Source: an uncultured Commensalibacter sp.
GTDB taxonomy: Bacteria; Pseudomonadota; Alphaproteobacteria; Acetobacterales; Acetobacteraceae
Reading direction: 5' to 3'
Length of the DNA stretch: 64,000 nucleotides
Assembly: GCA_946699565.1 (NCBI GenBank)
Contig: CAMPDW010000007.1
Span: 36,870 to 100,869, forward strand
Shown here one piece after another: positions 2,119 to 9,216 of this stretch. The position numbers and the translations under genes are program-made. Below the pieces are notes generated by a model. The model saw nothing but the letters and a program-made list of their open reading frames with translations. It was not told the DNA's origin and searched no databases. Position 1 is the first letter of the stretch. Every line of letters starts with the position of its first letter.

Positions 2119-3084
2119 CTAATCTGACAAAATTCCAAGATTTTTATAACCTTTTATTTTCAATTGATATGCAGATTTTATTGCTCTCATTCCTGTTTTA
2201 CATATCAACACAATTCTCCTATCACTGGGGAAATTAACATCCAATATTTTTTCAGATTTTATCCTTATAACATCTGATCTAATCTTATTAGGTTTTTCGA
2301 TAAAATCACGCAACTCAACAAGATAATCATCCTTTTTTAAACTTTTAACGTCCAATAAATCAATTCTATCTTTAAAATCTGGCTCTTCCGCTTTATCAAA
2401 ACTAAATTGACTTGTTTTCCAATTAAAACAATCAATATAAAATAATTGTCCTAATGTTGGTTTCGATAGATTTAAAATAATATTTAATGTCATTTGAGCC
2501 TGTAGTGAACCTAATATTGCTACAACTGGTCCCATAACTCCAACCGTATTACAATTCATATTCGAAAAAACAGGTTTTGGAAAAACAGCACGATAACTGG
2601 GTTTCCCACCGCAAAAAGCACCTACATAACCATGATATTCTAATACAGAAGCACTGATAAAAGGAATTTTTGCTTCATAGCAATAATCTGATAATAAATA
2701 AGTTACTATAAAATTATCAGCTGCATCAATGACAAGATCAATATCCCTCACTGCATTAGAAAGATATGAATATGATAGTTTTTGGACATGTGCCTCGATT
2801 TTACACTCTGGATTTTGTTCTTTTAAAATTTTTTGCATCACCAAAGCTTTTGCCTGACCAAGGTCAGCCATAGAATACATATATTGGCGATGAAGATTGC
2901 TTTCCTCCACATAATCCGGATCATAAATACGTAAAAAACCTACACCTGCTGCAATCAGCAAAGGTAAAACTGAACATCCTAATCCACCGCAACCAATAAC
3001 TAAAACACGTGCTTGACTTAATTTCTTCTGCCCTTCTATACCAAATTCAGGTAAAAACATCTGTTTTTGATAACGATCTTTCAT
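2119..3084 (-). CDS. thiF: ThiF-type ThiS adenylyltransferase with C-terminal rhodanese-like domain
   Basis: E1-like enzyme that adenylates the C-terminal glycine of ThiS so that sulfur can be loaded for thiazole synthesis. From the start chosen here it has 321 residues. The nucleotide loop GCGGLG is at 31-36 and the acceptor Cys of the NCNTVGVMGP motif at about 178; a rhodanese-type CKTGMR loop lies at 295-300. The CxxC zinc pairs usual in E. coli ThiF/MoeB are absent (SYR is found where CYRC is expected, and there is no second pair). An in-frame ATG exists at 3117, but the ATG at 3084 overlaps the thiE stop as TAATG and begins right at the family's conserved RYxRQ-like start, so I prefer it. 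Last gene of thiOSGEF. A MoeB-type role cannot be excluded. Confidence 0.85.
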   Translation of the reverse strand: MKDRYQKQMFLPEFGIEGQKKLSQARVLVIGCGGLGCSVLPLLIAAGVGFLRIYDPDYVEESNLHRQYMYSMADLGQAKALVMQKILKEQNPECKIEAHVQKLSYSYLSNAVRDIDLVIDAADNFIVTYLLSDYCYEAKIPFISASVLEYHGYVGAFCGGKPSYRAVFPKPVFSNMNCNTVGVMGPVVAILGSLQAQMTLNIILNLSKPTLGQLFYIDCFNWKTSQFSFDKAEEPDFKDRIDLLDVKSLKKDDYLVELRDFIEKPNKIRSDVIRIKSEKILDVNFPSDRRIVLICKTGMRAIKSAYQLKIKGYKNLGILSD

Positions 3085-3686
3085 TAATTTTTTACTTTCT
3101 TTATTTGTCGACACCATTCATTGTAACGTCCAATTGGATCATATGAAGTTTGAATATCAGTTACCACAGCCAAGCTATCCGCTCCAGCTTTCAATACATC
3201 TTGTACTCGTTCAGAGGTTATTCCACCAATAGCAACCAAAGGAATATTTTTTACTCGTTGTTTCCATCGCATTAATTTTTTTAATCCCTGTGGATACCAT
3301 CTCATTTTCTTTAACAATGTTTGATAAATAGGTCCTAAAGCAATATAATCTGGTTGTAAATTCAATGCGGTCTCTAATTCAGATCGATCATGCGTGGAAA
3401 TTCCGAATTTAATACCTGCATTCCGCAAAGTTCTAAAATCAGCCTTTTGCAAATCCTCCTGACCTAAATGAATGAAATTAACGCCTAATTCTAATGCCAA
3501 TTTCCAATAATCATTTAAAATCAGTTGCGCTCCATATTGTCGACAATAAATTTGAGCTTCTGTTATATGCTGTCTTAATTGTGTTTCAGGCATATTTTTT
3601 ATGCGCAGCTGCACCAATTTTAATCCAACAGGTAATAACTTCCTAATAAGTTCAACTGAATGAGTAACTAAATAAATTTTTTCCAT
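3084..3686 (-). CDS. thiE: Thiamine-phosphate synthase
   Basis: Joins the thiazole and pyrimidine phosphates into thiamine monophosphate in the cytoplasm. The 200 residues follow the ThiE TIM-barrel layout: KLVQLRIKN near residue 25, LILNDYWKLALE then FIHLGQEDL (80-95), FGISTHDRSEL (about 113), DYIALGPIYQT (about 130) and AIGGITSERVQDVLKAGADS near 165, the phosphate-binding loop. The length is normal for the family. It follows thiG with a 2-nt gap and overlaps thiF by one base. A Lys/Arg-rich stretch after GPIYQT replaces the usual T/K-rich loop and is somewhat divergent. Confidence 0.88.
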   Translation of the reverse strand: MEKIYLVTHSVELIRKLLPVGLKLVQLRIKNMPETQLRQHITEAQIYCRQYGAQLILNDYWKLALELGVNFIHLGQEDLQKADFRTLRNAGIKFGISTHDRSELETALNLQPDYIALGPIYQTLLKKMRWYPQGLKKLMRWKQRVKNIPLVAIGGITSERVQDVLKAGADSLAVVTDIQTSYDPIGRYNEWCRQIKKVKN

Positions 3687-6435: not shown

Positions 6436-6473
6436 GGTCCTTGATTTATTTTAATTTATTAAGGATCTTTTTT
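6436..6473 (+). terminator. Rho-independent terminator after cynS
   Basis: The stem GGTCCTT (6436-6442) pairs with AAGGATC (6461-6467, one G-T pair) around an 18-nt AT loop and is followed by TTTTTT. It lies 28 nt after cynS and touches the 3' end of the convergent nrdG. Confidence 0.5.
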
Positions 6474-6985
6474 CATATTATCCAATTAAGCTGTTTTTTT
6501 ATTTTATTCCGATCCAATTGAGTTAATACCCTTTGATTTGAACTGCCACAAAAAGATAATTGTAAATTACGTTGTTCAATTTCAAAAGGACCATCAATCA
6601 ATATATCTGTAAATTCCAATAATTGTATTATTGAAGGATTATATTGTCCTAACTTCAATAATCGTTCATAGGTATAACCTGTATAGGTTACAAGCGTTTT
6701 TCCCATTTGTTTGACAAGTCTAGCAAGTGATACTAAATTTTTCGCTTGTAAAAAAGGCTCTCCCCCCGAAAATGTCATTCCTGACAAAAGCGAATTATCT
6801 CTAAAAACATCAAAAATTTTCTGAATCGGAATTTCATAACCCCCCTTTAAAACATGCGTTTCTGGGTTATGACATCCTATACATTGATGGGGGCAACCTT
6901 GAGTAAAGACAACATATCGTATTCCAGGTCCATCTACTATAGATTCTTCTTCTATACCACTAATACGTAATTTAGCTGCAACCAT
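6473..6985 (-). CDS. nrdG: Anaerobic ribonucleotide reductase activase (radical SAM)
   Basis: Radical-SAM enzyme that creates the glycyl radical on NrdD. From the ATG at 6985 it has 170 residues: KLRISGIEEESIVDGPGIRY at the start, then CPHQCIGCHN with the CxxxCxxC cluster ligands (Cys31, 35, 38), and TFSGGEPFLQ (about 72), the GGE SAM-binding motif. LIDGPFE and the closing region match NrdG. The open frame extends to 7045, but those extra residues overlap the preceding ORF and are not family-like. The chosen ATG overlaps the 3' end of the small glycyl-radical ORF by 14 nt, suggesting coupled translation. Third gene of the nrdD - small ORF - nrdG operon. Confidence 0.92.
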   Translation of the reverse strand: MVAAKLRISGIEEESIVDGPGIRYVVFTQGCPHQCIGCHNPETHVLKGGYEIPIQKIFDVFRDNSLLSGMTFSGGEPFLQAKNLVSLARLVKQMGKTLVTYTGYTYERLLKLGQYNPSIIQLLEFTDILIDGPFEIEQRNLQLSFCGSSNQRVLTQLDRNKIKKQLNWII

Positions 6986-7157
6986 GTTTAACACGATCTT
7001 TTTCTTCTGCACGTTTAGCATTATTAAAACGATCCAATGTTCCAACCAAATAACCGGTTATACGTCGGATTCTAGCAAAACCAACATTAGCCCCAACTTT
7101 TTTCTGATCTATATAAGCTGATTGATTTTGTTCGTTTTTTTCTTTGTTATTTAACAC
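6972..7157 (-). CDS. Stand-alone glycyl-radical segment of class III ribonucleotide reductase (NrdD C-terminus)
   Basis: A 61-residue ORF whose second half, RRITGYLVGTLDRFNNAKRA then EEKDRVKH, aligns residue by residue with the C-terminal glycyl-radical loop of NrdD (E. coli end: RVCGYLGSPDARPFNAGKQ...RVKH). Gly35 in RITGYL is the expected radical glycine. It starts with GTG at 7157, 10 nt after the nrdD stop, with a strong AAGGAAG Shine-Dalgarno just upstream. An ATG at 7187 in the same frame overlaps nrdD and has no such site. The frame differs from nrdD, so simple read-through cannot join them. The protein could work like GrcA/YfiD, docking into the nrdD product in trans; that role is an inference. 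A frameshift origin is possible but the ORF has its own good start. Confidence 0.85.
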   Translation of the reverse strand: MLNNKEKNEQNQSAYIDQKKVGANVGFARIRRITGYLVGTLDRFNNAKRAEEKDRVKHGCS

Positions 7158-7167
7158 TGTATCTTCC

Positions 7168-9216
7168 TTAATTATAAATTGGTACATTTGAATAAATTTC
7201 TCTTAATTCATTTAATTTTTTTATACTAACGGACTCTCCCTCTTTTCTTCCACAACGTGGACATTCATTATCAATGACACCAACATAACCACAGACAGGA
7301 TCCCTATCCAAAGGATGATTAATCGCCCCATATCCTATTCCAGATTCCTTCATATAACGAATAATCGTTTCAAAAGCATCCATATTTTTACAAACATCTC
7401 CATCAAGTTCGATGTACGTAATATGCCCCCCGTTTGTCAAGGAATGATATGGTGCTTCCAATTGAATTTTTTTATAAGCTTTAATCGGATAATAAACAGG
7501 AATATGGAAAGAATTCGTATAGTAATCCCGGTCAGTTACCTCGGCGATAACCCCATATTGTTTACGATCCATTAGAACAAATCGTCCACTTAAACCTTCT
7601 GCTGGTGTAGCAATTAAAGAAAAATTAAGCTTTGTCCTTTTTGCGGCTTCATCTGTTTTTTGACGCATATAACTGATAATTTTTAATCCTAATTCCTGTG
7701 CTGCTTTACTTTCTCCATGATGGACACCTATTAAAGCTTTTAAAGTTTCTGCCAAGCCAATAAAACCAATTGTTAACGTACCGTGTTTTAATATTTTTGC
7801 TATTTCATCGTCTATTGCTAACTTTTCTGAATCTATCCAAATCCCCTGCCCCATCAAAAAAGGATAATTTCTAACTTTTTTACGACATTGAATATGGAAA
7901 CGATGTAAAAGTTGATGAAAAGATAAATATATCATTTTATCAAGCAACTTGAAAAATAACTCTATATCACCGTGAGCTTTTAATGCTAATCTCGGTAAAT
8001 TAATTGTAGTAAAACTTAAATTACCACGGCCACATATCGTTTGTCTTTTAGGATCATAAACATTCTCTAAAACACGTGTACGACACCCCATATATGCAAC
8101 TTCTGTTTGAAAATCTCCTTTTTTATAAAATTTTTTATTAAAAGGGGCATCAATAAAACTGAAATTAGGAAAAAATCTTGAAGCTGATGTTTCCATTGCC
8201 AATTTAAACAGATCATAATTTTTATCTTTGGAATTAAAATTAATCCCTTCTTTGACTTTAAAAATCTGTACAGGAAAAATAGGTGTTTCACCATTTCCCA
8301 ACCCAGCTTTTGTTGCTAATAATAGATTACGAATAACCATGCGCCCTTCTTCAGAAGTATCGGTTCCATAATTAATTGAACTAAAAGGAACCTGTGCCCC
8401 AGCACGTGAATTCATTGTGTTCAGATTATGTACAAATGCTTCCATCGCCTGATAAGTACGTCTTTCTGTTGCTTTAACCGCCTTTTGACTTGCGAAACAA
8501 AATGCATCTCGTAAAATATCTTGAGTAACATTTAAATATAGAAATTCTTCAAATTGTTCTTTATAAACCTGAAACAAATGTAACCTTATAATTACAATTT
8601 TTTGTTCAAATTTTTCTTGTATCGCATCAATTTCTATTTCTTCAAGATATGTTTTTATTTGCATATAAATTCGAAAAAACTTCCAAAATTCTTGTCTGAA
8701 TGTTTTTTTAATTCCATCAGCCATTGCATAATCAAAATTTGGTACACTTTGACCACCATGCATTTCATTTTGATTGGCCTGAATTGCAATGCAAGCAAGT
8801 GCTGAATAACTTTCAATCGAATTAGGTTCTCTTAAATAGCCGTGCCCTGTTGAAAACCCGTTTTTAAATAATTTAATTAAATCAATCTGACAACAAGTTT
8901 CAGTTAACATATAAAAATCTTTATCATGGATATGAATATCCCCATTCTGATGAGCCTGTGCAATATTTTCAGGTAAGACATAATGATCTATAAAGAATTT
9001 TGATCCTTCAGAACCATACTTCAACATTGTTCCCATCGCGGTATCCCCATCTATATTCGCATTTTCACGTTTAATATCTTCATCCTGGGCCGCTGTAAAA
9101 GTTAATTTCTTATATATATCCATCAATTCAGTTTCATTCACATATACTGAATTAGATTTCTGAGTGTTTCGAATAGGTTTCGCTGTCATTTTTACATTTT
9201 CATAACGTGTCAACAT
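7168..9216 (-). CDS. nrdD: Anaerobic (class III) ribonucleoside-triphosphate reductase, large part lacking the glycyl-radical loop
   Basis: Reduces ribonucleotides to deoxyribonucleotides without oxygen. The 682 residues include DKDFYMLTETCCQIDL (about 98-113) with active-site cysteines, EMHGGQSVPNFDYAMADG (about 155), a PFSSINYGTD strand, YMGCRTRV (about 377, second active-site Cys), and a C-terminal metal-site remnant with Cys642, Cys652 and Cys655 (VCGYVG...CPRCG). Only about 30 residues precede the catalytic core, so no ATP-cone is present. The protein stops 27 residues after the last Cys and has no GY glycyl-radical motif; that is encoded by the next ORF. AAGGAG lies about 12 nt ahead of the ATG. 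Operon with the small ORF and nrdG. Confidence 0.93.
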   Translation of the reverse strand: MLTRYENVKMTAKPIRNTQKSNSVYVNETELMDIYKKLTFTAAQDEDIKRENANIDGDTAMGTMLKYGSEGSKFFIDHYVLPENIAQAHQNGDIHIHDKDFYMLTETCCQIDLIKLFKNGFSTGHGYLREPNSIESYSALACIAIQANQNEMHGGQSVPNFDYAMADGIKKTFRQEFWKFFRIYMQIKTYLEEIEIDAIQEKFEQKIVIIRLHLFQVYKEQFEEFLYLNVTQDILRDAFCFASQKAVKATERRTYQAMEAFVHNLNTMNSRAGAQVPFSSINYGTDTSEEGRMVIRNLLLATKAGLGNGETPIFPVQIFKVKEGINFNSKDKNYDLFKLAMETSASRFFPNFSFIDAPFNKKFYKKGDFQTEVAYMGCRTRVLENVYDPKRQTICGRGNLSFTTINLPRLALKAHGDIELFFKLLDKMIYLSFHQLLHRFHIQCRKKVRNYPFLMGQGIWIDSEKLAIDDEIAKILKHGTLTIGFIGLAETLKALIGVHHGESKAAQELGLKIISYMRQKTDEAAKRTKLNFSLIATPAEGLSGRFVLMDRKQYGVIAEVTDRDYYTNSFHIPVYYPIKAYKKIQLEAPYHSLTNGGHITYIELDGDVCKNMDAFETIIRYMKESGIGYGAINHPLDRDPVCGYVGVIDNECPRCGRKEGESVSIKKLNELREIYSNVPIYN

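Follow-up and report, generated by a model that had tools for sequence, protein, structure and literature searches.

The nrdD locus of an uncultured Commensalibacter

In a 64,000-nucleotide stretch of DNA from an uncultured Commensalibacter sp. (contig CAMPDW010000007.1 of the 1.9-Mb assembly GCA_946699565.1, positions 36,870 to 100,869; the whole stretch is referred to below as the window), the gene for the class III ribonucleotide reductase (RNR) NrdD lacks the part encoding the glycyl-radical loop, and a loop of this type is found on a small open reading frame (ORF) of its own between nrdD and the activase gene nrdG. Below, the loop-bearing piece of NrdD is called the glycyl-radical domain (GRD) and NrdD without the loop is called the body; all of the evidence presented is based on sequence.

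All three genes are read from the minus strand. The nrdD ORF (7168..9216) translates into a catalytic chain of 682 aa and ends with a TAA at 7170-7168; the last Cys of its C-terminal cluster is residue 655, and the 27-residue tail that follows (7171..7251), delineated by pattern search and tail listing, contains no RxxGYL loop. An AAGGAAG motif resembling a Shine-Dalgarno (SD) sequence (7163..7169) overlaps the nrdD stop codon, and 10 nt separate this stop from the GTG (7157-7155) of a 61-codon ORF (6972..7157, stop codon 6974-6972) whose frame differs from that of nrdD. This ORF, a putative free-standing glycyl-radical subunit according to its translation, Pfam match, GRD-core alignment and dN/dS, carries the loop RRITGYL with the radical glycine as residue 35 (codon 7055-7053). 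The nrdG ORF (6473..6985), assigned to a radical-SAM activase by Pfam and NCBIfam, starts with an ATG at 6985 and overlaps the end of the GRD ORF by 14 nt. An earlier note on this DNA, made from the letters alone, had described the truncated NrdD, the separate 61-residue loop ORF with its own AAGGAAG and GTG, the overlap into nrdG and the radical Gly35, and all of these hold at the level of individual coordinates. An alternative in-frame ATG at 7187 would yield a 71-aa GRD overlapping nrdD, but we favour the shorter form because the SD-like motif precedes the GTG.

Profile searches divide the enzyme at the same place. The Pfam NRDD model (PF13597) matches the body with its positions 1-531 of 562 (E 2.4e-187, 624.5 bits) and the 61-mer with positions 533-562 (E 1.8e-7, 30.6 bits against a cut-off of 26.2), and the cut therefore falls after the Cys cluster and before the glycyl loop. 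The body also matches NCBIfam PRK07111 (975 bits, positions 82-713 of 746), the NCBIfam matches of the GRD ORF that count are C-termini of NrdD, and the nrdG product passes the NrdG model TIGR02491 (135.9 bits against a cut-off of 126.1). Relatives of the body in the PDB include the enzymes of P. copri (8p23) and phage T4 (1h78). The body lacks the N-terminal part of PRK07111 (its first 81 positions), for which most relatives have room: the extension is absent from NrdD of the window and of C. melissae, while C. papalotli and many other relatives have an open frame for it. The missing extension is probably an ATP-cone, and dATP control of the window and C. melissae enzymes may have been lost. 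An examination of repeats within this segment of the window yielded nothing of use.

The residues that mark a class III RNR (HxHD, the NxN flap, the finger-loop Cys and the formate-type Asn) are present. The body keeps HIHD at 95-98, NAN at 52-54, Cys108, Cys378, Asn399 and Glu540, and the GRD keeps the Gly, the Tyr and the Arg at Gly+8; these positions were mapped by hand via an alignment to 8p23, with an inferred offset of 4 to the published numbering, and their roles are taken from the consulted part of PMC11226230. The residues of the body are invariant or nearly so in our alignment A2, the MGCR motif is found in 111 of 111 NrdD rows, and RRITGYLVGT is invariant in an alignment of 31 GRD cores (A1).

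Both pieces are shown by substitution patterns to be under purifying selection. In the GRD core of the window (37 codons, the nrdG overlap excluded), 12 synonymous and 5 non-synonymous differences from C. melissae correspond to a dN of 0.08 and a dS of 1.0; the comparison with C. papalotli gives 0.09 and 1.05, and that of the body with C. melissae 0.10 and 1.03. The N-terminal 23 codons of the GRD appear to be under little constraint, being 22% identical between the window and C. melissae with a dN of 0.89 and a saturated dS.

Conservation and history of the split

We examined the best 80 of 552 NrdD relatives from a genome-contig collection, which come from Commensalibacter, Lachnospiraceae, Oscillospiraceae, other Clostridia and Desulfovibrionaceae, the closest named ones being those of Commensalibacter melissae (82% identity) and C. 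papalotli (73%). The NrdD frame ends without a loop in 79 of the 80, and in 73 of these 79 an intact GRD ORF lies downstream on the same strand; the other six comprise one locus with the GRD in broken frames (L018), three with no GRD nearby (L034, L042 and L056) and two at contig ends (L061 and L073). At the 73 loci, where GRD starts were chosen by a heuristic, the GRD is 46-67 aa long (median 54), the gap to nrdD ranges from -44 to 261 nt (median 55) and an SD-like motif precedes 71 of the GRDs in a permissive motif search without control. An nrdG gene is present in 73 of the 80 stretches. The split is shared by many gut bacteria, and its named carriers are Desulfovibrio piger ATCC 29098, Coprococcus catus, Anaerostipes sp. 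992a and C. melissae AMU001. One locus (L074) has two tandem GRD ORFs (3042-3155 and 3279-3392) behind a single loop-less nrdD, and a Subdoligranulum plasmid record (L192) holds another split with tail, GRD and nrdG.

The 71-aa form of the GRD was also searched for in 60 genomes (the window's own, 8 others of the genus, 27 of the family and 24 of the class): three of the eight congeners match, each with a short free-standing frame, and none of the 51 genomes of the same family or class does. The earlier note had called for a search of sister species and would have fallen had close relatives all carried a fused nrdD; the split is instead kept in these three genomes and in nearly all of the closest homologues.

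These data bear on the possibility that a sequencing error or private frameshift has cut a continuous nrdD. While the two pieces in the window do lie only 10 nt apart in different frames, the recurrence of the same architecture in three of the eight other genomes of the genus and of a loop-less NrdD in 79 of the 80 homologues excludes chance or error for practical purposes, and the tails of split enzymes have no counterpart in the 19 fused enzymes tested; an error is thus extremely improbable. The tail of loop-less bodies has a consensus of approximately R(K/R)xGExVSxExLxELRxxYxxxP. Searched for as L[RQAEK], 2-3 residues, [YFH], 2 residues and [MVT][PT], it is matched by 83 of 92 loop-less bodies, many of them near kin, and by none of the 19 fused NrdDs; of the nine misses, four have the same tail by eye, two (L110 and L139) are partly alike and three (L208, L209 and L210) differ. 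Several split-NrdD tails, not including that of the window, end in Cys pairs (CC or CxC; L012, L016, L035, L074, L075, L084 and others), which recall C-terminal redox or metal sites.

Alternatively, programmed frameshifting or stop-codon readthrough could join the two ORFs into a fused NrdD after all. The GRD frame of C. melissae, D. piger and others does continue that of nrdD beyond a single stop codon. Yet across the 73 loci the start of the GRD is spread nearly evenly over all three phases relative to the nrdD stop (30, 25 and 18), gaps extend to 261 nt, the GRDs have SD-like motifs of their own and in two genomes (G061 and G062) the GRD is not linked to nrdD. We consider a joined product highly unlikely.

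In a quick tree of 68 NrdDs (SH-aLRT supports; the method warned of long branches), 42 split rows form one clade together with L082 (support 97). Commensalibacter (99) falls within a 17-row clade (99) with rows from Desulfovibrio, Desulfovibrionaceae and Deltaproteobacteria, a grouping that suggests transfer: Commensalibacter carries a relative of the Desulfovibrio form of the split, probably through horizontal transfer in one direction or the other. Splits also occur outside the main clade (L207, L208, L209, L210, phage loci L110/L139, and L144), at several places with weak support, which points to repeated origin; a single origin of all splits was dropped, since the tree needs at least six changes, three of them forced by starred branches. 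In two of these outlying enzymes (L209 in genome G372 and L210 in G387) NrdD stops at the point where a loop would be expected to start; neither stretch yielded a GRD remnant, and the one GRD found in each genome lies apart from nrdD and bears an N-terminal domain. A plausible reading is that here NrdD lost its own loop after a spare part already existed. A 6.9-kb contig of the window's assembly (C27) holds a second copy of the locus, which we did not use as a case of gene duplication: with 98.0% identity to C. melissae AMU001, as against 75% to the locus in the window, it is likely contamination.

Surveys of whole classes put the split into proportion. The GRD profile A1 matches 91 of a sample of 291 genomes from the class of Coprococcus catus, and 15 of these 91 have a free-standing GRD frame: in eight it adjoins a loop-less NrdD (G329, G350, G066, G254, G073, G404, G241 and G368), in five it is an extra beside a fused NrdD (G351, G217, G412, G201 and G265) and in two it is unlinked to a loop-less NrdD (G372 and G387). 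Short frames in two further genomes (G207 and G165) were discarded as cut frames of fused enzymes, lying at a contig end or in broken frames (L200 and L201). The fused NrdD is commoner than the split one in this class, and fused enzymes are undercounted because A1 misses GRDs of another type (that of L212). In the class of Desulfovibrio, GRD matches occur in 52 of 199 genomes, none of the 52 in a frame above 348 aa; the neighbouring body was checked individually for a few only, among them the longest frame (L211), which proved to be split, as did two others (L213 in G523, L217 in G440).

GRDs away from the split locus

At the three loci with no GRD nearby (L034, L042 and L056), nrdG comes after nrdD without an intervening GRD, and each genome has one intact GRD ORF elsewhere (G062 also holds fragmentary weak GRD matches). 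The bodies form one clade (support 100). The unlinked GRDs of L042 and L056 (L097 and L098), both from Desulfovibrio-type genomes, are 73% identical and share a neighbourhood, with ORFs 89, 55 and 47% identical; that of the L034 genome (L096) has a terminase gene on the same contig.

A survey for the class I/II RNR large subunit (PF02867), with a control positive in 11 of 14 known genomes, found it in 26 of 40 genomes tested, after an earlier test had found it in 8 of 13, the window's among them. Among the 14 genomes without PF02867, four have a second NrdD (G329, G241, G064 and G065), one is ambiguous (G444) and one gave no body (G540); in the remaining eight (G350, G254, G368, G580, G060, G061, G062 and G387) no RNR was detected other than a loop-less NrdD with its GRD encoded separately.

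Could the loop-less NrdD have ceased to be a reductase, or draw its radical from elsewhere, with the GRD serving some other glycyl-radical enzyme? The presence of GRD genes away from nrdD and in phages speaks for this, but the body keeps its finger-loop Cys, its substrate residues and MGCR, nrdG is encoded in most of the homologue stretches, the GRD matches NrdD models with only NRDD (no domain of the pyruvate formate-lyase (PFL) type) found in Pfam at E 0.001, and in eight draft genomes the pair is the only RNR detected. We regard this reading as very unlikely.

The architecture of the split and its conservation are firm. What they very probably amount to is a working two-chain class III RNR, and a radical subunit acting in trans, as the earlier note had proposed, is strongly implied by the recurrence of the split in Lachnospiraceae, Oscillospiraceae, Desulfovibrionaceae and Commensalibacter, by its occurrence in all three frames, by the unlinked genes and by the eight drafts. 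Several observations, besides the in-frame continuation past one stop described above, weigh on the other side. One of the 80 closest homologues, the NrdD of Acetanaerobacterium elongatum (L082), is a fused enzyme that branches within the split clade, with weak support for its position there; five of the eight other genomes of the genus have no GRD match. As PF02867 is present, the split enzyme is not the sole RNR in most of the genomes tested, including that of the window. The eight genomes in which it seems to be are drafts of unstated completeness, three of them metagenome-assembled (those of L034, L042 and L056), so that an RNR gene may have been missed, and in G060 the sole GRD found sits on a phage-like contig. 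Sole reliance on the split enzyme was dropped for Coprococcus catus, Catenibacillus scindens, Anaerostipes sp. 992a and Eubacterium sp. An11: these four genomes lack PF02867, and each has a second, fused NrdD that had escaped the GRD queries. The only one of the four inspected, that of C. catus, has a GRD of another type (L212).

The extra GRDs of the Clostridia genomes with fused NrdD raise the question of repair. The extra GRD ORFs (L193-L199) are 89-141 aa long by first start and share an N-terminal domain; they adjoin NrdD at L193 and L194 and lie elsewhere in the genome for the others. At these two loci (L193:1936-2235 and L194:1752-2045, both minus strand) an extra GRD gene of about 98 aa with a small N-terminal domain lies between a fused nrdD and nrdG, making it a candidate GrcA-like spare part for NrdD. 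By analogy with GrcA/YfiD and PFL, the GRD ORF could then mainly be a repair part for oxygen-cleaved NrdD, a reading in keeping with the five Clostridia genomes that have a fused NrdD and an extra GRD, two of them between nrdD and nrdG. Against this, the body in the window and its clade comes without a loop, which makes the small chain necessary from the outset, as a subunit and not as a means of rescue; repair as the main role is thus unlikely for the split enzymes, though the GRD may be exchanged after damage in addition to acting as a subunit.

GRDs are also found in viral records. Among the best 80 of 397 viral relatives (IMG/VR; L110-L189, with stretches of at most 6 kb on each side), 68 loci have a GRD without NrdD body or nrdG in the stretch, six have body and GRD, and six are fused; several loci are near-copies, the scan patterns select RRITGYLV-like loops and the records may be fragments. 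Profile P0002 detected no NrdD in any of 49 GRD-alone records (out of the 68), whereas it did detect one in L169, the fiftieth record examined. Phage proteins (terminase, head-tail adaptor, tail, transposase and anti-restriction families) were confirmed at four of the 68 loci (L114, L140, L167 and L178), the viral nature of the remainder resting on IMG/VR. A hidden Markov model of the N-terminal domain of the extra GRDs also finds two viral ones (L141 and L189) among 223 GRD-bearing frames.

Cellular stretches can be phage-like in turn: four (L096, L102, L203 and L214) carry terminase, baseplate or tail fibre proteins, and D. piger (L102), G404 (L203) and G523 (L214), in addition to a split nrdD of their own, have such GRDs in regions that resemble prophages. 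Another D. piger stretch (L101, contig C59) holds what by eye is a phage-like cluster with dUTPase-like and kinase-like ORFs, a GRD and nrdG, with its nrdD interrupted near residue 374-377. Profile P0001 matches 14 of 50,697 annotated phage records, among them 11 unannotated faecal phages and two C. difficile phages with annotated nrdD, as well as 28 plasmid records, of which the 20 matches listed are mostly full nrdD genes. In Eggerthella phage EL753P1 (L190:2703-6134), nrdD has an intein-like insert after MGC and a loop-less end; the GRD ORF downstream stops at RRI, with the remainder of the match in a second piece.

Such GRDs may easily be overlooked. For stand-alone GRDs (five proteins per library), the only Pfam matches over the cut-off fall at the end of the full-length NRDD model, the NCBIfam matches are only to ends of full-length NrdD models and far below cut-off, and the best PHROGs matches are ends of full-length NrdD families. 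Annotation therefore likely hides them, as they have no family of their own in these libraries. With somewhat better than even confidence, we suggest that NrdD GRDs form a family of autonomous, exchangeable genes: split enzymes would require the product as a subunit, other Clostridia with an intact fused NrdD would keep it as a spare part (a state that would sometimes have led on to loss of the loop from the enzyme itself), and phages would carry it as a stand-alone gene sustaining the host's anaerobic RNR during infection.

A probable two-chain class III RNR and its known counterparts

In the mechanism that we propose, the barrel and the substrate sites, together with the finger-loop cysteine and the Cys cluster, would belong to the NrdD body, and the radical glycine, on which NrdG would generate the glycyl radical, to the 61-residue chain; the small chain would dock its RRITGYL loop in the barrel beside Cys378 of the body. 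Docking in trans, radical transfer between chains and the order of activation are all inferred. A fused ancestor would have been broken after its Cys cluster and ahead of the loop, an event that appears to be ancient and to have come close to fixation in a single clade made up of Clostridia and Desulfovibrionaceae. Oxygen cuts glycyl-radical enzymes irreversibly at the radical glycine. A possible benefit of the split would be that such cleavage ruins only a cheap 7-kDa chain.

In body sequence, catalytic residues, nrdG partner and loop sequence the window enzyme resembles known class III NrdDs (PF13597, PRK07111; P. copri, T4, T. maritima). It differs in two respects: the loop, which forms the C-terminal portion of the catalytic chain in the NrdD structures as described in the sources partly consulted, has a gene to itself here, and the body ends in an additional conserved tail. 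The split class II RNR NrdJa/NrdJb of P. aeruginosa is likewise divided between two consecutive ORFs, one of which holds the C-terminal part, but, according to the parts of PMC9669993 and PMC4009431 consulted, it has no glycyl radical, and NrdJb has an IscU-like and a zinc-finger domain. Split RNR genes are also on record in phages, nrdD being the commonest with six cases among 128 phage genomes with RNR; these differ in being due to introns, inteins and endonuclease genes, with one of unknown cause, and the portion of PMC3653736 consulted describes no free-standing GRD.

The likeness to GrcA/YfiD drawn by the earlier note stands in part. Both are small, autonomous proteins with a glycyl-radical loop, and the present one would, like GrcA/YfiD, work in trans; but PFL has a loop of its own and GrcA/YfiD acts after oxygen damage (PMC8683613, in the part consulted), whereas here the partner is NrdD, the sequence is of the NrdD type, and the body in the window lacks a loop that could be damaged and then rescued. 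In split enzymes the subunit is obligatory. The truer parallels would be the extra GRDs beside fused NrdD, the only ones to match a rescue part in arrangement, together with the phage-borne GRDs. Y06I of phage T4 is likewise a spare part for PFL.

Among the records listed by searches of the open-licence PMC literature we found no description of a split NrdD with a separate GRD or of a phage-borne GRD, although subscription papers or database entries may have it, and no paper on Commensalibacter and ribonucleotide reductase. Neither arrangement is described in the parts consulted of PMC4390871, PMC9669993, PMC9531940, PMC3653736, PMC11528403, PMC8683613, PMC3019208, PMC12288474, PMC4493059, PMC2795772, PMC4009431 and PMC11226230. 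Spare parts for other glycyl-radical enzymes have been the subject of speculation (PMC8683613, part consulted), and the extra and phage-borne NrdD loops provide concrete candidates for them. Finally, a natural RNR with its radical loop on a chain of its own would make radical handling between chains, activation and the exchange of parts directly testable in named strains.

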